From NCBI GenBank assembly GCA_023245865.1, contig JAHFJN010000001.1:124001-188000 (forward strand): DNA of 64,000 bases. The letters run 5' to 3'. Shown piece after piece: positions 13,977-50,292 of this stretch. The DNA comes from Candidatus Peribacteria bacterium (GTDB taxonomy: Bacteria; Patescibacteriota; Gracilibacteria; Peribacterales; Peribacteraceae). Each line of letters begins with the position of its first letter. The first letter of the stretch is position 1. Under the pieces are notes generated by a model that saw only the letters and a list, made by a program, of their open reading frames with translations, searched no databases and had not been told where the DNA came from. A program made the translations under genes and the position numbers.

Positions 13977-14116
13977 ATCGGTGCTTTTAATGAGCCTCGA
14001 TGAAACTTTATTAAAATACTACAATTACATAAAAAAGTCAATAATTTTCTCTTCTTTCTTAAGCTGGTCGCTTTGCCTATTTTGCTCGTGTACACTCCCA
14101 CAAGCTCGTTTCTTGC

Positions 14117-14147
14117 TTCCTTCCTCGACTACGCTCGGAATGACACA
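14117..14147 (+). repeat. Dispersed repeat overlapping the carA start codon
   Basis: TTCCTCGACTACGCTCGGAATGACACA, a diverged copy of the family. The ATG of its GGAATGACAC end is the most likely carA start (14140), so the repeat appears to provide the initiation codon. Confidence 0.7.
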
Positions 14148-15336
14148 TTTGCTTCTCTCCGACGGCACTGTTTTTCAAGGGGAGGCATTTGGTTCCTTCG
14201 ACTCCGCTCAGGATGACACGTTTGGAACCGGCGAGGTGGTGTTTAATACAGGCATGGCGGGGTACCCCGAGAGCATGACGGACCCGAGTTACCGGGGGCA
14301 GATACTCGTCACGACGTATCCGTTGATCGGCAACTACGGAGTCCCCAGTGAAGAATTAAATGAATGGGGGTTTTCCAAAAATTTTGAGAGCGAAGAGATC
14401 CACATTCGCGGCCTCGTCGTCGCGCAAGTGAGTGATACCTACAGTCATCATAGTGCCGTGAGCAGCTTGCAGCGCTGGATGGAACATCACAAGATCCCGG
14501 GGATCACGGGGGTCGATACGCGAGCGTTGACGAAACATCTGAGAGAAAAAGGTGTTATGCTGGGCAGAATCACTCATGATTCTGCAGCGATAAGCGATAA
14601 GCGATTAGCGGTGAGCGAAATAGAAGATCCGAACAGTCGCAATCTTGTGGCGGAGGTGAGTTGTAAGGAGCCGATCACATACAATCCAAAACCAGAAACC
14701 AGCAACGAGAAACCAGTAACGATTCTTTCATATGATTGCGGCATGAAACGCAATATCTTGCGAAGTTTTCTGAGGAGGGGAGTGAAAGTCATTCGCGTGC
14801 CGTGGGACTATGATCTCGATAGCTGCAAAGAGCACTTCGACGGCGTCTTCATCAGCAATGGCCCGGGCGATCCGAAAACCTGCGTCCCCACAATCAAAGC
14901 GATCAAGCGTGCGATCGAAAAAAATATTCCGACGTTTGGGATATGCCTTGGCAATCAACTGATGGCACTCGCTGTCGGCGGCGACACATTCAAATTGCCG
15001 TACGGGCATCGGGGGGTGAATCAGCCATGCTTGGAGCGAAGAGCGATAAGCGATAAGCGACAAGCTGACTCATTGTTACCACCCGCTGCCCGCTACCCGC
15101 TACCCGCTGAGCATCATTGCATTATTACTTCCCAAAATCACGGCTTCGCCGTCGATGAAAAAAGTTTGCCAGCGGGCTGGCATGTGTGGTGGAAGAATGG
15201 CAACGATGGGACCGTGGAGGGGATCCGCCATGACAGCGGCCGCTTCTTCGCGGTGCAGTTTCACCCCGAGGCGGCGCCAGGTCCGGAGGATGCAGGGTAC
15301 CTTTTTGACCAGTTTATTGCGTGTTTAAAAGTTTGA
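14140..15336 (+). CDS. carA: Carbamoyl-phosphate synthase small (glutaminase) subunit with repeat-derived insertions
   Basis: Hydrolyses glutamine and channels ammonia to CarB for carbamoyl phosphate, the precursor of pyrimidines and arginine. 398 residues from ATG 14140 (MTHLLLSDGTVFQGEAFG), chosen because it matches the family N-terminus; a frame open to 13981 has no family resemblance. The N-terminal domain carries GEVVFNTGM. The class I glutaminase domain has GICLGNQ with nucleophile C269, and VQFHPE with H375 and E377. Four insertions relative to the family look derived from DNA repeats: SFDSAQDD (about 19-26), AISDKRLAVSE (about 148-160), PKPETSNEKP (about 184-194) and a longer one at about 297-323. 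All fall where loops are expected, so the enzyme is probably active. carB is not nearby. Confidence 0.93.
   Translation: MTHLLLSDGTVFQGEAFGSFDSAQDDTFGTGEVVFNTGMAGYPESMTDPSYRGQILVTTYPLIGNYGVPSEELNEWGFSKNFESEEIHIRGLVVAQVSDTYSHHSAVSSLQRWMEHHKIPGITGVDTRALTKHLREKGVMLGRITHDSAAISDKRLAVSEIEDPNSRNLVAEVSCKEPITYNPKPETSNEKPVTILSYDCGMKRNILRSFLRRGVKVIRVPWDYDLDSCKEHFDGVFISNGPGDPKTCVPTIKAIKRAIEKNIPTFGICLGNQLMALAVGGDTFKLPYGHRGVNQPCLERRAISDKRQADSLLPPAARYPLPAEHHCIITSQNHGFAVDEKSLPAGWHVWWKNGNDGTVEGIRHDSGRFFAVQFHPEAAPGPEDAGYLFDQFIACLKV
14193..14219 (+). repeat. In-frame dispersed repeat inside carA
   Basis: TTCCTTCGACTCCGCTCAGG followed by ATGACAC. Translates as SFDSAQDD. The same element in the same frame yields SFDYAQDD in ribD. 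Confidence 0.85.
14586..14723 (+). repeat. Two 7-bp-period repeat clusters inside carA
   Basis: Cluster 14586-14620 has five consecutive heptads: agcgata twice, then agcgatt, agcggtg and agcgaaa. Cluster 14689-14723 has aaaccag twice, caacgag, aaaccag and taacgat. The heptad register is unbroken within each cluster. The second shares unit types with the ribE cluster at 33244-33306. Confidence 0.88.
15035..15109 (+). repeat. Third and fourth 7-bp-period clusters inside carA
   Basis: 15035-15069 holds agcgaag, agcgata twice, agcgaca and agctgac. 15082-15109 holds cccgctg, cccgcta twice and cccgctg. They encode the insertion between GHRGVNQPC and CIITSQNHGFAV of the glutaminase domain. Confidence 0.88.
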
Positions 15337-22782: not shown

Positions 22783-22817
22783 ATTCTCCAATTTCAATTC
22801 TCCATTCTCCATTCTTC
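22783..22817 (+). repeat. Heptad cluster immediately before rpoC
   Basis: Five units in unbroken 7-bp register: attctcc, aatttca, attctcc twice, attcttc. It ends one base before the rpoC ATG, so it occupies the ribosome-binding region; no Shine-Dalgarno is present. Confidence 0.85.
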
Positions 22818-30362: not shown

Positions 30363-31375
30363 TGGCCCATGAATTTTTCATGCATCGGTGTATTGAGCGG
30401 GCGAAGGAGACGCAGGGAAGGGTCGGGAATGGTGCACTCGTATGGTCGGTTCTTGTACGGGAAGGAAAAATCATCGCAGAAGCGCACCATCGGGCATTTG
30501 GATTACCTCATGCCGAGAGAAGCTTGCTCGATGGTATTGAACAAAAAATTAGTTCATCAGATATTCTCTACGTGAATATGGAACCTTGTTGTCACTACGG
30601 CAAAACTCCTCCGTGTACCGATATCATCATTGAAAAGGGCATCAAACATGTAGTGTATGGCATGCGAGACCCGGATCAACGTGTTGCAGGCAAAGGCATT
30701 GAGCTTCTGAAAGCAGCGGGAATCGAAGCTGTTGGTCCTGTCCTTCTTCCCGAATGTGAACGCTTGAATAGGGGGTTTGTTTCTGTGCGAAATAAAGGCA
30801 GACCGTGGATTACCTTGAAACGTGCACAGATGCGGGATGGTACAACGGCGAATACAGGAGGAGCACGATTGATGATTACCTCACAGGAGCAAAATGTCTG
30901 GTCGCATACATTCCTTCGCTCCACGCATGATGCGATTCTTGTGGGGGTGAGGACCGTCACTACCGATGATCCGGTGTTGGATGCTCGTTTCTCGTCCTTC
31001 GACTACGCTCAGGATGACACTCAGATTAGATATCAGCCCTCGAGGATTGTGCTCGATCCGCATCTTCGCATACCGATGCGTGCAAAAGTTGTGAGTGATT
31101 CTCATACGGATCGTACAATGATCGTGACGTCGCACGTTGCGAACGAGAAGTGTAAAGAAGCGTTACGAATGAGGGGGGTGCGTGTACTCGAAGTCGCCAT
31201 GGATTCAGATCAATTGGATTGGAAGGATTTGTGGCGGCAGCTGATCACTCCCTCCAATGACTATCATGGGCTTACAAGTATATTGGTTGAAGGTGGTGCC
31301 AAGACGTGGGATATTTTTAAAAAGGCGGGGATGGTCGATGAAGAAGTGATTCTCACAAGATGTGACCCATCTTGA
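30362..31375 (+). CDS. ribD: Bifunctional riboflavin deaminase/reductase, apparently truncated at the C-terminus
   Basis: Second and third steps of riboflavin synthesis. 337 residues. The deaminase domain has zinc ligands H50 (HAE), C76 and C85 (EPCCHYGKTPPC). The reductase domain runs from about 148 with GRPWITLKRAQMRDG, DAILVGVRTVTTDDP and ILVEGGAKTWDIF. An insertion SSFDYAQDD at about 211-220 is a translated dispersed repeat. The protein stops at MVDEEVILTRCDPS, about 40-50 residues before the usual end of the reductase fold, and overlaps the 3' end of ribBA by 23 bp on the opposite strand. The PNP-x-VG motif of the deaminase is also degenerate (GNGALVW). Deaminase activity is likely; reductase activity is uncertain. 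Confidence 0.88.
   Translation: MAHEFFMHRCIERAKETQGRVGNGALVWSVLVREGKIIAEAHHRAFGLPHAERSLLDGIEQKISSSDILYVNMEPCCHYGKTPPCTDIIIEKGIKHVVYGMRDPDQRVAGKGIELLKAAGIEAVGPVLLPECERLNRGFVSVRNKGRPWITLKRAQMRDGTTANTGGARLMITSQEQNVWSHTFLRSTHDAILVGVRTVTTDDPVLDARFSSFDYAQDDTQIRYQPSRIVLDPHLRIPMRAKVVSDSHTDRTMIVTSHVANEKCKEALRMRGVRVLEVAMDSDQLDWKDLWRQLITPSNDYHGLTSILVEGGAKTWDIFKKAGMVDEEVILTRCDPS
30992..31020 (+). repeat. In-frame dispersed repeat inside ribD
   Basis: CGTCCTTCGACTACGCTCAG followed by GATGACAC. Inserts SFDYAQDD into the reductase domain. Confidence 0.85.
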
Positions 31376-32555
31376 TTTTCTTCGTCTGCAAATACTTTTT
31401 CTGACGATCGGATGTCGGTTCAATCCGAAGTGGAAGTTGCTCCGTTACCTCAAGGTCGAACCCTTGCAGGCCTGCCATTTTCTTCGGATTATTCGTGAGC
31501 AGGCGCAGTTTCCGGACCCCCACATCGCGCAGAATCTGAGCACCGATGCCATATTCGCGAAGATCTGCCGGGAGCCCTAACTTTTCATTGGCTTCCACGG
31601 TATCGAGCCCTTCCTCTTGCTGCAGTTTATAAGCGCGGATTTTATTCAAGAGTCCGATTCCGCGTCCCTCCTGGCGAAGATACAGCACCACCCCCGAACC
31701 TTCCTCCTCGATCTGACGCATGGCCACCTTCAATTGCCCTCCGCAATCGCAGTGCAGAGAATCAAACACATCACCGGTTAAGCATTCCGAATGCACGCGC
31801 ACGAGTGTCGTACTGTCAGGATGGATCGTTCCTTTGATCAGGGCGAGGTGTTCGCTTTGGTGCACCGTGTCGCGATAGATCTTGAGTTGCCAATGACCCG
31901 TTTCCGTCTCGAGAGACGTTTCTGTCTCGAACGTGATGCATGACTCGTGTCGGCGGCGGTAGGCGATGAGATCGGCGATCGAAATGATGAGGATCTTGTG
32001 TTCTTTTGCAAATTTCTGGAGAGCAGGGAGGCGCATCATCGTGCCGTCATCGTTCATGAGTTCCGCTCCAACCGCACCGCACCGCAGTCCTGCCAGTTTC
32101 ATCAAATCGACGGATGCTTCGGTGTGGCCGGCGCGCACGAGGACGCCGCCATCCTGCGCTCGCAAGGGAAAGATGTGCCCCGGGCGGCTGAGGTCGGAGG
32201 GCCTAGCATCGGGCGCGATCGCCGTTCGAACCGTCCACGTTCGATCTTTTGCGGACACTCCCGTATCAACATTCTTAGCGGCCTCGATGCTGACGGTGAA
32301 AGGCGTCCCACGCTTGGAGGTATTTTTCACGACCATGGGCGGCAGATCCAATTGGTCGGCGACAGCATTGGTGAGAGCGAGAAACACGATGCCGCTCGTG
32401 TGACGAATGATGAATGTCATCTGTTCCTGCGTGAGGTGTTCTGCGGATGCAACGAGATCTCCCTCATTCTCCCGATTTTCATCATCGACGACGATCAGGA
32501 TTTCTCCTCGCTTGAGCGCGTCGAGTGCCTGCGCAATGGTGTCGAATGATGTCAT
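31353..32555 (-). CDS. ribBA: Bifunctional 3,4-dihydroxy-2-butanone-4-phosphate synthase / GTP cyclohydrolase II
   Basis: Makes both entry compounds of riboflavin synthesis. 400 residues. The N-terminal RibB domain has VDDENRENEGDL (metal-binding acidic loop), RPGHIFPLRA, and GHTEASVDL. The RibA domain begins at about 230 with the zinc site ECLTGDVFDSLHCDCG, then YLRQEGRGIGLLNKI and LLTNNPKKMAGLQGF. Translation overlaps ribH by 4 bases, so this is the last gene of the ribE-ribH-ribBA operon. Its 3' end overlaps ribD convergently. Confidence 0.96.
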   Translation of the reverse strand: MTSFDTIAQALDALKRGEILIVVDDENRENEGDLVASAEHLTQEQMTFIIRHTSGIVFLALTNAVADQLDLPPMVVKNTSKRGTPFTVSIEAAKNVDTGVSAKDRTWTVRTAIAPDARPSDLSRPGHIFPLRAQDGGVLVRAGHTEASVDLMKLAGLRCGAVGAELMNDDGTMMRLPALQKFAKEHKILIISIADLIAYRRRHESCITFETETSLETETGHWQLKIYRDTVHQSEHLALIKGTIHPDSTTLVRVHSECLTGDVFDSLHCDCGGQLKVAMRQIEEEGSGVVLYLRQEGRGIGLLNKIRAYKLQQEEGLDTVEANEKLGLPADLREYGIGAQILRDVGVRKLRLLTNNPKKMAGLQGFDLEVTEQLPLRIEPTSDRQKKYLQTKKIKMGHIL

Positions 32556-33019
32556 CGGAGAGCGCGGAGCGTGGAGAGCGAATGCAGAACGGCAAGAGCC
32601 GCTTCCGTTCCTTTATTGTTTTTTCCCCTGATTCGCGCCCGGGCCTGCGCAAGGTTTTTTACGTAGAGCACTTCGAACGCAAAGGGAATCAGGAAATCGA
32701 GTTGCACCTCCATGATCCCGTGGGCGGTTTGCGTTGCGAGCAGCTCTGCATGGTGCGTCTCGCCTTCGATGATGATGCCGAGTGCCATGAGAGCGTCGTA
32801 TGTTCCGGTCGCCGCGAGCGCACTTCCAATCAGGGGAATTTCAAACGACCCCGCTGCGCGGTGAATCACGATATTTTTTTCTTTGATGCCTGCATACAAG
32901 AGTGTTGCGCGAGCAGCCTCGATCATCGGTTGAATCATTGCATCGTGATACTGTGATGCGACGATACCGATCTTCCAGTTCGGGTTGATGCGCGGCGGGA
33001 GAGCGAGAGTTTGCTTCAT
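32552..33019 (-). CDS. ribH: 6,7-dimethyl-8-ribityllumazine synthase
   Basis: Condenses the RibB and RibD products. 155 residues. Substrate-binding AAGSFEIPL and the catalytic-His loop IIIEGETHHAELLA are clear, as is the final helix (NKGTEAALAVL). It overlaps ribE and ribBA by 4 bases each. The last ten codons (32558-32580) show a weak 7-bp periodicity (ggagagc, gcggagc, gtggaga), but the family normally ends with a similar helix, so repeat origin is uncertain. Confidence 0.95.
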   Translation of the reverse strand: MKQTLALPPRINPNWKIGIVASQYHDAMIQPMIEAARATLLYAGIKEKNIVIHRAAGSFEIPLIGSALAATGTYDALMALGIIIEGETHHAELLATQTAHGIMEVQLDFLIPFAFEVLYVKNLAQARARIRGKNNKGTEAALAVLHSLSTLRALR

Positions 33020-33612
33020 GTGCGTTTGAGCATGATATCAGTTTCCACGTTCACGCGAACGCCGGGTTTTAGGCTGCCCAATGTCGTAGAGCGAATGGTG
33101 AGTGGAATCAGTGCAATTGTACACAAATTTTGTTCAATAGATGCGATCGTCAGTGAGACGCCGTCGATGGCGATGGAGGATTTGGGAACAACGTAATCCC
33201 TAAGATTGAAAGGAATATCTATAACAATGATCGACTCAGTTTCGTTTCTGGTTTCTGGTTTCTGGTTTCTCGCTTCCGTAGCCAGCAACGAGTAACGAGC
33301 AACAATGCCGACGCCTTCGACGTGGCCTTGCACGATATGTCCATCCAACCTGCTGTCGGCTCGCACAGCGCGTTCCAGGTTGACCCGATCACCTTCCTCG
33401 AGAGTTGCCAGTTTTGTTTTTTTCCATGTTTCTTGAACCACGTCGAAAGACATGCTGATGTTGTTCATTTCCACAACACTGAGACAAACCCCAGTGACGC
33501 AGATGCTTGAGCCGATCGTGATGTCATCGAAGATCTTCGGCCGCTCGATCACGAGCGTGTGATCTGTGCGTTTCAAAACCTTTGCCGTTGCCTCAATGAT
33601 GCCTGTGAACAT
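33016..33612 (-). CDS. ribE: Riboflavin synthase alpha subunit with a heptad-derived linker
   Basis: Final step, dismutation of two lumazines to riboflavin. 198 residues with two lumazine-binding repeats: MFTGIIEATAKV...GSSICVTGVCLSVV and DGHIVQGHVEGVGIVARY...SSIAIDGVSLTIASI. Between them lies an extra LLATEARNQKPETRNETE stretch encoded by the 7-bp-period cluster at 33244-33306. The position is a loop on the second barrel, so folding may tolerate it. First gene of ribE-ribH-ribBA; a TATAAT hexamer 6 bases before its ATG predicts a leaderless transcript. No FMN riboswitch is possible in that space. Confidence 0.95.
   Translation of the reverse strand: MFTGIIEATAKVLKRTDHTLVIERPKIFDDITIGSSICVTGVCLSVVEMNNISMSFDVVQETWKKTKLATLEEGDRVNLERAVRADSRLDGHIVQGHVEGVGIVARYSLLATEARNQKPETRNETESIIVIDIPFNLRDYVVPKSSIAIDGVSLTIASIEQNLCTIALIPLTIRSTTLGSLKPGVRVNVETDIMLKRT
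33244..33306 (-). repeat. Nine-unit heptad cluster inside ribE
   Basis: Plus-strand units in unbroken register: gtttctg three times, gtttctc, gcttccg, tagccag, caacgag, taacgag, caacaat. Read on the coding strand these give the gaaacca and ctcgttg unit types also present in carA. The longest cluster in the window. Confidence 0.9.
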
Positions 33613-34399: not shown

Positions 34400-34614
34400 T
34401 AGAGTTCGTCTTTTCAGGAATGCAGATCATGCTCCCACATGCATTTTTTTCGAAGAATTTTTCGTGCTTTATGTCTCGCCAAAGCCTCCTTTGACAGGGG
34501 TGATATTCGCTGCTCATACATTCTTGCGAAGGATCTCTGACTACAATATCTTGGGGGTTACATTCATCAGAGCTACTACATCGTGTATTTTACTTGTCAT
34601 TCCCGCTTCCCGCT
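34400..34614 (+). other. nrdJ upstream region
   Basis: No gene recognised. TTGACA near 34491 and TACAAT near 34539 are candidate promoter parts, but their spacing does not make one convincing promoter. No cobalamin riboswitch could be recognised by eye. Two exact heptads, tcccgct at 34601-34607 and 34608-34614, directly abut the nrdJ ATG. Confidence 0.4.
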
Positions 34615-37600
34615 ATGAACCCGCGCGCCGCCATGCAAGCTGATCCTGCTACTCTCGAACAGGAGACGATTCTTCCGCCGAAAGGCGGTATGACGGTGCA
34701 TCGTCTTTTTACGACTCCCGGGAGTGATCCGCTCGAGGAAGTGACGTACGAAAAACGCACGAGCAGGATCAAAAACACCGACGGATCGATTGTGTTTGAG
34801 ATGGAAAATGCGGAAATTCCGGCATTCTGGAGCCAGGTGGCGACCGATATTGTCGTGAGCAAATACTTCCGCAAAGCAGGCGTGCCGGAGAGGGATCGTG
34901 AGGGGAATCTGCTGCGCGATGCGCAGGGAAAGGTGATCACGGGGCCGGAGCGGTCCGTGAAACAGGTGGTGCGGCGGCTTGCCGGTTGTTGGCGAGTCTG
35001 GGGGGAGAGTCACGGATATTTCGCGACGACGCAGGACGCGCAGGCGTTCGAAGACGAGCTGAGTTACATGCTTGTGCGCCAAATGGCGGCTCCCAACAGT
35101 CCGCAGTGGTTCAACACAGGTCTGCATACCGCCTATGGCATCACGGGGCCTGCCCAGGGGCATTATTACTGTGAGCCGGAGACGGGGGAGGTGAAGCGAA
35201 GCCAGGATGCTTACACCCACCCGCAGCCGCATGCGTGCTTCATTCAGTCTGTCGATGATGACATGGTGAACGAGGGCGGGATCATGGATCTGTGGGTGCG
35301 GGAAGCCCGTCTCTTTAAATTCGGTTCGGGGACGGGGACAAACTTCAGCAATCTCCGAGGAGCAGACGAGCCGCTCTCCGGTGGGGGCAAGAGCTCGGGA
35401 CTCATGAGTTTCCTGAAGATCGGTGACCGCGCCGCAGGAGCGATCAAATCCGGCGGCACGACGCGCCGGGCCGCCAAGATGGTGTGTCTGGATCTCGATC
35501 ATCCGGATATCGAAGAGTTCATCAACTGGAAGGTGAACGAGGAGAAGAAAGTTGCTGCGCTCGTGAAGGCGGGGTACGACACGGATTTTAACGGCGAGGC
35601 CTACCTGACGGTCTCGGGCCAGAACAGCAATAATTCCGTGCGCGTTCCGCATGCATTCTTCGAGGCAGTCGAGCGTGACGAAGACTGGAGCATGACGTGG
35701 AGAACGGAGCTGCGCAAAGCTCGTGAGGAGGGAAGGGCGGCGAAGCCTTGTAAAACAATGAAGGCGCGCACGCTCTGGGACCAGATCGGCTACGCCGCGT
35801 GGTCGTGCGCGGATCCGGGTGTCCAGTACGACACGACGATCAATGACTGGCACACCTGCCCAGCAGATGGCCGCATCAAAGCGAGCAATCCCTGCAGCGA
35901 GTACATGTTCCTCGACAACACCGCCTGCAATTTGGCATCGCTCAACTTGCTCACCTTTTATTCCGACCCTTCGACAGGCCTGCCTGCCGGTAGGCAAGGC
36001 TCAGGGCAAGACGCATTTGATGTGGAGAAGTTTTGCCATGCAGTGCGACTCTGGACAATTGTGCTCGAGATCTCCGTGCTGATGGCGCAGTTTCCAAGCC
36101 GCGAGATCGCGGAATTAAGCTACCGTTTCCGGACGCTCGGTCTTGGCTACGCGAACTTGGGGGCAATGCTCATGCGGATGGGAATTCCGTACGATTCACC
36201 GGAAGGCCGCAGCATCGGCGGGGCGATCACCGCGATCCTCACGGGGCAGTCGTATGCGACCTCCGCAGAGATGGCTCGTAATCTCGGAGCGTTTCCCGGG
36301 TATCTGAAGAATCGCAACCACATGCTGAGAGTGATCCGCAATCATCGTCGCGCTGCGTACGATGCGCCCGCCAAAGAGTACGAAGAGTTGCACGTCGCAC
36401 CCGTCGGACTTGATCAGCGTGCGTGTCCGCAGTATCTCTTAGAAGCGGCGAAGGAATGTTGGGATCGCGCCCTTTCCATTGGAGAAGAGCATGGCTACCG
36501 CAACGCTCAAGTGACGGTGATAGCGCCGACGGGGACGATCGGACTTCTCATGGATTGCGACACGACCGGCATCGAACCCGATTTTGCGCTTGTGAAATTC
36601 AAGAAATTGGCGGGTGGCGGTTACATGAAGATAGCGAATCAGTCGGTAGAGCCTGCGTTCAAGGCGCTTGGTTATGATTCCGTACAAGTACGCGACATCA
36701 TGCGGTACGTGATGGGAAGCTTAAGCCTCGAGGGCGCGCCGCACATCAACCGGACATCACTTCGCGAGAAGGGATTCACAGATGAAGACATCGCGAAGAT
36801 CGAGAAGCAGTTGCCCACGGTCTTCGAGCTCGGATTCGCGTTCAACAAGTGGGTCCTTGGAGAAGAAACGATGAAAAAGTTTGATTTTACAAAAGAGCAG
36901 ATCGAGGAGGCGAACGTCGCAGTCTGCGGACACATGACTGTGGAGGGTGCGCCGCACCTCAAGAGCGAGCATCTCCCTGTCTTTGATTGCGCGAACAAGT
37001 GCGGCAAGATCGGGCGGCGCTTCATCGCGGCGGAAGGACACATTCGGATGATGGCTGCCGCGCAACCGTTCATCTCCGGGGCCATCAGCAAGACCATCAA
37101 TCTCCCGCATGAGGCGACCGTTGAGGATATCAAGAATGCCTATTTCCTCAGCTGGAAGTTGTGTCTCAAAGCCAACGCCCTGTATCGCGATGGAAGTAAA
37201 ATGAGCCAGGCGCTGAGTAATAAGTCTGATTCGAAAGACCCGGCTTCGTCCGCGGATTCCGCCGTGGCAAAAGAAAGAATTGTGGAGAAGATTGTGTACA
37301 AGGAAGTGCCGCGGCGCAAAAAACTGCCGCCGGAGCGCATGGCGATCGCGCACAAGTTCAGCATTGCCGGCCACGAGGGGTACATCCACGTGGGCATGTA
37401 CGAAGACGGAGCGCCGGGGGAGATCTTCATTAAAATGAGCAAGGAAGGTTCCACGCTCAGCGGCGTGATGGATACGCTCGCGCTCAGTCTCAGCATGAAC
37501 CTGCAGTACGGAGTTCCGCTGGAGGTGCTCTGTGAGAAGCTCGTGCACACACGCTTCGAACCGATGGGGATGACCGGTAACAAGGAGATCCCGATGGTCA

Positions 37601-37932
37601 AAAGCATCATGGATTACATGGGTCGCTGGCTCGCGCTCAAATTCCTCACGAAGACCCAGGCGATGAAGTTCCATAATCACGAACTCGTCGAGAAAGCGTA
37701 CAGCGAGGGAACGAAGAGCAAGGATGCCTTTGCCATGCGGTTACAGGTGATCGATGAGGGGACATCGGCGGTTGTGAATGTCGCTACATCTGCCGAAACA
37801 GACACGTTAGAAGTCGCAAAACTACAAGGATTCACGGGGAGTATTTGCGGCGGATGCGGCAGCACCAAGATGAAGCGAAACGGTTCGTGTGAACTGTGTT
37901 TGGATTGCGGTGGGACAAGTGGCTGCAGCTAG
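34615..37932 (+). CDS. nrdJ: Adenosylcobalamin-dependent (class II) ribonucleotide reductase
   Basis: Reduces ribonucleotides to deoxyribonucleotides with a cobalamin-derived radical, oxygen-independent. 1105 residues from ATG 34615 (a TTG seven codons upstream was rejected). Landmarks: NSPQWFNTG, QPHACFIQSVDDDM, FKFGSGTGTNFS, the active-site ASNPCSEYMFLDNTACNLASLN near residues 421-441, and APTGTIGLLMDCDTTGIEPDF. A TSCPD-type domain occupies about 900-1010. The tail is Cys-rich (CGGCGSTK, CELCLDCGGTSGCS) and suits re-reduction of the active site or zinc binding. An insertion at about 451-466 (TGLPAGRQGSGQD) is a translated nested repeat. The cell must obtain B12, as no synthesis genes are in view. 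Confidence 0.96.
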   Translation: MNPRAAMQADPATLEQETILPPKGGMTVHRLFTTPGSDPLEEVTYEKRTSRIKNTDGSIVFEMENAEIPAFWSQVATDIVVSKYFRKAGVPERDREGNLLRDAQGKVITGPERSVKQVVRRLAGCWRVWGESHGYFATTQDAQAFEDELSYMLVRQMAAPNSPQWFNTGLHTAYGITGPAQGHYYCEPETGEVKRSQDAYTHPQPHACFIQSVDDDMVNEGGIMDLWVREARLFKFGSGTGTNFSNLRGADEPLSGGGKSSGLMSFLKIGDRAAGAIKSGGTTRRAAKMVCLDLDHPDIEEFINWKVNEEKKVAALVKAGYDTDFNGEAYLTVSGQNSNNSVRVPHAFFEAVERDEDWSMTWRTELRKAREEGRAAKPCKTMKARTLWDQIGYAAWSCADPGVQYDTTINDWHTCPADGRIKASNPCSEYMFLDNTACNLASLNLLTFYSDPSTGLPAGRQGSGQDAFDVEKFCHAVRLWTIVLEISVLMAQFPSREIAELSYRFRTLGLGYANLGAMLMRMGIPYDSPEGRSIGGAITAILTGQSYATSAEMARNLGAFPGYLKNRNHMLRVIRNHRRAAYDAPAKEYEELHVAPVGLDQRACPQYLLEAAKECWDRALSIGEEHGYRNAQVTVIAPTGTIGLLMDCDTTGIEPDFALVKFKKLAGGGYMKIANQSVEPAFKALGYDSVQVRDIMRYVMGSLSLEGAPHINRTSLREKGFTDEDIAKIEKQLPTVFELGFAFNKWVLGEETMKKFDFTKEQIEEANVAVCGHMTVEGAPHLKSEHLPVFDCANKCGKIGRRFIAAEGHIRMMAAAQPFISGAISKTINLPHEATVEDIKNAYFLSWKLCLKANALYRDGSKMSQALSNKSDSKDPASSADSAVAKERIVEKIVYKEVPRRKKLPPERMAIAHKFSIAGHEGYIHVGMYEDGAPGEIFIKMSKEGSTLSGVMDTLALSLSMNLQYGVPLEVLCEKLVHTRFEPMGMTGNKEIPMVKSIMDYMGRWLALKFLTKTQAMKFHNHELVEKAYSEGTKSKDAFAMRLQVIDEGTSAVVNVATSAETDTLEVAKLQGFTGSICGGCGSTKMKRNGSCELCLDCGGTSGCS
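35967..36010. repeat. In-frame nested repeat inside nrdJ
   Basis: Arms CCTTCGACA and AAGGCTCAGGGCAAG enclose GGCCTGCCTGCCGGTAGGC, the same palindrome found at 1573-1590. The reading frame is kept open through it. Confidence 0.82.
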
Positions 37933-50257: not shown

Positions 50258-50292
50258 AGTTGGTAGTGTGTAGTGAGTAGTTAGTAGGACGA
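50258..50292. repeat. Heptad cluster between rpsB and tsf
   Basis: Plus-strand units agttggt, agtgtgt, agtgagt, agttagt, aggacga in 7-bp register. It includes the rpsB stop codon (50281-50283) and encodes the last residues SSY of S2, and it fills nearly the whole spacer before the tsf ATG. Confidence 0.8.

Follow-up and report, generated by a model that had tools for sequence, protein, structure and literature searches.

The riboflavin synthase gene and its heptad cluster

The window, the whole stretch of 64,000 nucleotides of Candidatus Peribacteria DNA that was analysed, carries a compact rib operon in the order ribBA-ribH-ribE, in which ribBA (31353-32555) and ribH (32552-33019) were named from sequence only. 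The ribE gene (33016-33612, minus strand) encodes a protein of 198 residues. The product scored 185 bits against NCBIfam PRK09289/TIGR00187, above the equivalog cut-off of 155, and contains two Lum_binding stretches, which together assign it to the riboflavin synthases. Matches in the PDB were 9ryj and 1i8d, with an alignment spanning residues 1-196, and RibE retains the family-invariant residues (the invariant columns of a 57-sequence alignment that includes the window protein). Elsewhere in the window, the gene for a class II ribonucleotide reductase (34594-37932) holds a further short in-frame repeat near 35990, the palindrome-encoded peptide LPAGRQG.

The heptad periodicity of positions 33244-33306 was confirmed by inspection and by TRF, which reported GTTTCTG in 3.9 copies at 33244-33270 (100% match) and a second array at 33284-33303. 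On the plus strand, 33244-33303 reads GTTTCTG three times, then GTTTCTC, GCTTCCGTAGC, CAGCAAC, GAGTAAC and GAGCAAC. The cluster is built from one degenerate word, [C/G]AG[A/C/T]AAC (SAGHAAC), arranged as two half-arrays in opposite orientation. Half-array 1 (33244-33271, on the minus, coding strand; sequence, TRF and word search) has the four units GAGAAAC CAGAAAC CAGAAAC CAGAAAC and covers approximately residues 115-123 (RNQKPETRN). Half-array 2 (33283-33303, plus strand; sequence, word search and model) has the three units CAGCAAC GAGTAAC GAGCAAC, which ribE reads as part of IVARYSLLA, the end of strand 100-109. They are separated by a non-repeat tip of 11 bp, GCTTCCGTAGC (33272-33282, assigned to no strand). 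The original prediction was a cluster of nine units encoding LLATEARNQKPETRNETE (residues 109-126). The spacing was as predicted, but the word fits no more than seven of these heptads, the others being the tip and the last heptad, CAACAAT, which is a repeat only in part; the encoded peptide is IVARYSLLATEARNQKPETRN, exactly codons 103-123. A coiled-coil (protein-level heptad) reading was rejected, as the period is seven nucleotides and not seven residues. When the half-arrays are paired, the mismatches fall at just the free positions of the word. The stability of the hairpin, as DNA and as RNA, was not above that of shuffled sequences (z −0.85), and a hairpin function at either level was rejected on this ground.

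An AlphaFold model of the window RibE, built from the 57-sequence alignment, had a mean pLDDT of 91.2 and preserved both barrels alongside a low-confidence loop. This extra loop (residues 110-126; 33235-33285, minus strand) lies between strands E100-109 and E127-132, with a pLDDT of ∼66 at residues 111-120. The segment encoded by the cluster thus falls in the second lumazine-binding barrel, where it forms the end of a strand and the low-confidence loop; as strand E100-109 precedes the loop in the model, half-array 2 encodes the strand end and half-array 1 the loop. The proposal of a frame-keeping heptad cluster that specifies an additional loop flanked by conserved strands was supported. The distance between the conserved anchors is 45 aa in the window RibE versus 32 aa for the commonest loop of the family (mostly 27-33 aa in members without large inserts), which gives a net gain of ∼13 residues; the loop is longer than the family norm, as anticipated, but not by the full 21 residues. 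Like the riboflavin synthases of E. coli (1I8D) and S. pombe (1KZL), the window RibE has two lumazine-binding barrels, and it differs from both by the ∼13 added residues in this loop.

Heptad arrays and their vocabulary in this genome

Arrays were sought in 612 kb of the 1.1-Mb genome (∼55%), with ORFs called mechanically. The sample contained 38 period-7 arrays and its Markov shuffles none; other periods yielded few (0-7 at lags 4, 5, 6, 8 and 10-13, 12 at lag 9, and 17 at lag 14, a harmonic of 7), so the heptad cluster is not a product of chance. Contig C7 (L142, 7.6 kb of this genome, G000) holds five dense AGTGAAA-type arrays, a word otherwise from another genus of the family, and may be misbinned. 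Since its arrays are of another type, it was excluded from the statistics on words, leaving 33 arrays in 605 kb. By extrapolation, the whole genome would hold roughly 50-60 degenerate heptanucleotide arrays.

Twenty-eight of the 33 arrays fall within ORFs of 80 aa or more, although a few placements at ORF edges are possibly spurious; such ORFs cover 92% of the sample, and the arrays are thus not confined to spacers. For most ORF-borne arrays the host has a Pfam match to a housekeeping family: CarA (four arrays), CarB, AlaRS, a class I tRNA synthetase, LepA, UvrC, Dus, GuaA, RsmG, YebC, Sua5, a MurB-like protein and glycosyltransferases. In the window, the array scan also found a GAGAATG array outside ORFs (22787-22817) and a GTAGTGA array at an ORF edge (50258-50287), neither assigned to a strand. 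Inverted half-arrays account for about 3 of the 33 and occur in ribE, in carA loop 3 and at L149.

The arrays of carA (13981-15336) lie on the plus strand in three loops. Loop 1 has an AGCGATA array (14583-14618; TRF, array scan and CarA alignment), loop 2 has an array of SAGHAAC, the word of ribE (14689-14722; TRF, array scan and word search), and loop 3 (15032-15112; TRF and array scan) has two facing arrays, AGCGATA at 15032-15066 and AGCGGGT on the opposite strand at 15078-15112. CarA also has, in its N-terminal part, the sequence SFDSAQDDT, which is reminiscent of a different dispersed repeat peptide.

Words are shared between unlinked loci of this genome and fall into a few consensus classes, SAGHAAC, AGCGATA/AGCGGGT, CAAGATN and CGAAGCT/CGAGCTA. 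Of 630 word pairs, 64 differed by at most one mismatch, against 16.5 expected and a maximum of 28 in 300 shuffles. For coding arrays matched for stop content there were 51 such pairs against 12.7 expected (maximum 23); as the excess survives this matching, stop avoidance is not its cause. Stop avoidance as the source of the common vocabulary was rejected as well on the number of stop-free coding words (23 of 28 versus 21.4 expected, P 0.26). A universally invariant AG dinucleotide, present in 34 of 36 words here (27 expected), was dropped because several relatives' words lack it.

Within arrays, the free positions are 1 and 4 in SAGHAAC, 5-7 in AGCGATA, and 1, 6 and 7 in CAAGATN. This clustering of variation at fixed heptad positions gave chi-square p-values of 7e-11, 3e-11 and 2e-7, which are too small because the test treats units of one array as independent. 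Since 7 is not divisible by 3, selection on codons cannot create a pattern in heptad phase, and the constraint must act at the level of the DNA.

The same loops in related genomes

Three consecutive SAGHAAC words gave 121 matches in 17 genomes of the family (this one included), versus 7 in the family for the backwards control; of the 353 genomes searched in the class, only 2 others had the run (6 matches). Three consecutive AGCGRTD words matched 12 times in this genome and rarely elsewhere. The array load varies among family genomes: the others are poorer in arrays (11 in 398 kb), and most of theirs lie outside ORFs (2 in ORFs). Several genomes of the class have in-frame TGA, fitting class Gracilibacteria.

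The RibE loop is an insertion site throughout the family. Heptad arrays with differing words were found there in five genera, the present one included: besides SAGHAAC here, AGTGAAA in one (L002, as facing arms, and L012; weaker in L004), and in others GGACATT (L015), GTGGATA (L020) and GAGAATT (L022). The background in 20 random family stretches was ∼28 arrays per Mb, from which ∼0.1 array is expected in the ∼3.6 kb of RibE loop sequence. In CarA, 19 arrays were found in 12 of 25 family sequences, all in the three loops and none elsewhere in the gene, again with different words in different sequences. Different words at the same sites point to independent arrivals at permissive loops. At other loci, facing inverted pairs of heptad arrays were seen in further genera of the family (L023, 1374-1480; L202, 15352-15473). 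In CarA loop 3 of L174, L175 and L178, REP-like GC-rich palindromes without DUF559 seem to occupy the heptad-array site.

These comparisons bear on two explanations. Assemblies of short repeats may have a wrong copy number; the ribE locus, however, lies on a 1.07-Mb contig with its reading frame intact, and independent genomes have arrays of this kind at the corresponding loops, so that an assembly or sequencing artefact is scarcely credible. The inserted loop might instead be a selected functional feature of the window riboflavin synthase, as its intact frame and the hydrophilic character kept in the loop half would allow. Against this, the relatives examined all lack the loop or have one of unrelated sequence, its word is repeated in unrelated enzymes too, and the prediction is of low confidence; we consider it very improbable. 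Most probably the ribE array is filler that the enzyme tolerates and that plays no part in catalysis, a function in regulation or interaction being conceivable.

It had also been proposed that survival may require unit numbers in multiples of three, to be checked by 21-bp length changes among close relatives. The lengths in the sample and in the family did not support this. Coding arrays in the 612-kb sample were 23-34, 39, 58 or 62 bp long, with no quantisation by 7 or 21 bp, RibE loops of the family 27-34, 40, 45 or 173-241 aa, and CarA loops at site 1 27-47 aa, varying by single residues; the RibE loops of L012 and L002, from one other genus, differ by 24 bp via a GC palindrome. With RibE loops, CarA loops and array lengths all unquantised, the 21-bp step model was rejected. 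The frame demands only that the net length change be divisible by 3, partial flanking units supplying the remainder.

The same lengths tell against an origin as a simple sequence repeat, in which a local 7-mer present by chance expands by strand slippage and, within genes, would grow in 21-bp steps. Bacteria are known to have an excess of heptamer repeats, for which polymerase slippage was put forward (PMC4692102), and the words differ between genera, as local birth would produce. But individual words are found again at unlinked loci far above chance, and across genera, and unit variants are confined to fixed positions. Slippage as the origin therefore seems unlikely, if still a serious possibility, and it may still alter copy number.

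Eleven family genomes from 9 genera (L111-L119, L121 and L125) have a nuclease-like DUF559 (PF04480) domain of ∼105 aa in frame within the RibE loop; it was confirmed by Pfam in two of these genomes and by genome search in ten. The inserts are flanked by GC-rich palindromes encoding P.PP..EEG-like peptides, and nearly all copies retain an E[VIL]DG..H-type motif. One genus (g14) has RibE members both with and without the insert, and in a model of the L117 RibE both barrels are kept, with DUF559 as a separate domain. The RsmG heptad array found here (residues ∼41-53) lies exactly at the DUF559 site of two relatives (L244 and L263). DUF559 was also seen in frame in or fused to further conserved proteins of these relatives, among them RsmG (L244, L263), RibD (L262) and a Mur ligase (L251), and likewise with an F420 ligase-like protein (L256) and an LTD protein (L242). 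This distribution resembles that of a mobile element which proteins can accommodate.

Because the RibE and RsmG arrays sit exactly at DUF559 sites of relatives, the arrays could be repair scars or element footprints, left by a dedicated process that writes degenerate heptad words and is tied to break-and-repair at DUF559-targeted loops. We regard this as a long shot; a common permissive loop accounts for the overlap without a causal link. The arrays could also be copies of a small mobile cassette resembling a Rickettsia palindromic element, the inverted half-arrays of ribE being its arms. The vocabulary common to the loci, the occurrence of inverted half-arrays (ribE, carA loop 3 and L149) and the use of the same loops as DUF559 elements would fit such a cassette. 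However, conserved ends, flanks or a fixed length were not seen, most arrays have a single orientation, the hairpin is no more stable than shuffles and no linked enzyme was found, which makes this origin rather improbable.

Origin of the arrays and comparison with known systems

Starting from the observed repeats, their frame, their position in the loop, the genome-wide vocabulary and the repeated use of the same loop, we propose that a repeat process at the DNA level makes heptad arrays and that selection keeps those in permissive loops, the ribE array being tolerated filler (probability about 0.78). The putative process would make or copy runs of a few 7-bp words, each with a fixed core and free positions, and would sometimes yield two inverted half-arrays; being a minority, these may also lie outside the mechanism. 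Within genes, a run would survive only where it lies in a surface loop, has a net length divisible by 3 and introduces no stop into the frame. The ribE run would have arrived in this way in the second lumazine-binding barrel, at the permissive loop that joins strands 100-109 and 127-132.

The arrays bear on why heptamers are over-represented among bacterial repeats, and their pattern of fixed core and free positions speaks against simple slippage alone. The family is a natural experiment, in which the CarA and RibE loops of different genera repeatedly received different heptad words in frame, so that alignments can show how arrays originate, grow and are filtered by selection. Repeat DNA here becomes part of essential enzymes, and annotators should be aware that variable loops of these genomes can be repeat DNA. 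Searches of open-licence papers brought up none that describes a riboflavin synthase with heptad arrays or DUF559 inserts.

The arrays are degenerate heptanucleotide repeats, with tandem 7-bp units, a fixed core with free positions, and many loci. In the P6b stem of the Nostoc tRNA-Leu intron (trnL), degenerate heptads of Class I (TDNGATT) or Class II (NNTGAGT) build the stem (PMC4476775). As here, the 7-bp units have fixed and free positions, the arms are complementary, and words are replaced between lineages at one permissive site. The P6b heptads pair as an RNA stem within an intron, whereas the ribE heptads have other words and are translated, and their arms do not form a stable RNA stem of that type. 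The heterogeneous heptameric repeats of Xanthomonas and Nostoc (GGGAATC/GGGANTN and GGGGA(C/T)T; PMC4692102) are likewise dispersed arrays of about four degenerate units, with one vocabulary per genome and inverted pairs. Those repeats were studied as G-quadruplex formers that are over-represented between genes, while the present arrays have no G-run words and, in this genome, are mostly inside ORFs. Rickettsia palindromic elements are repeats in frame within unrelated metabolic genes of a small genome (PMC10969869), and thus share the in-frame location inside unrelated genes. They form families of ∼150 bp with conserved peptides; the arrays described here are 23-62 bp long and use several words without common ends, and they show no conserved full-length element with defined ends and a conserved peptide. 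By analogy, the present case would join these two precedents, as heptad arrays of the Nostoc type that are kept in protein loops in the manner of Rickettsia palindromic elements.
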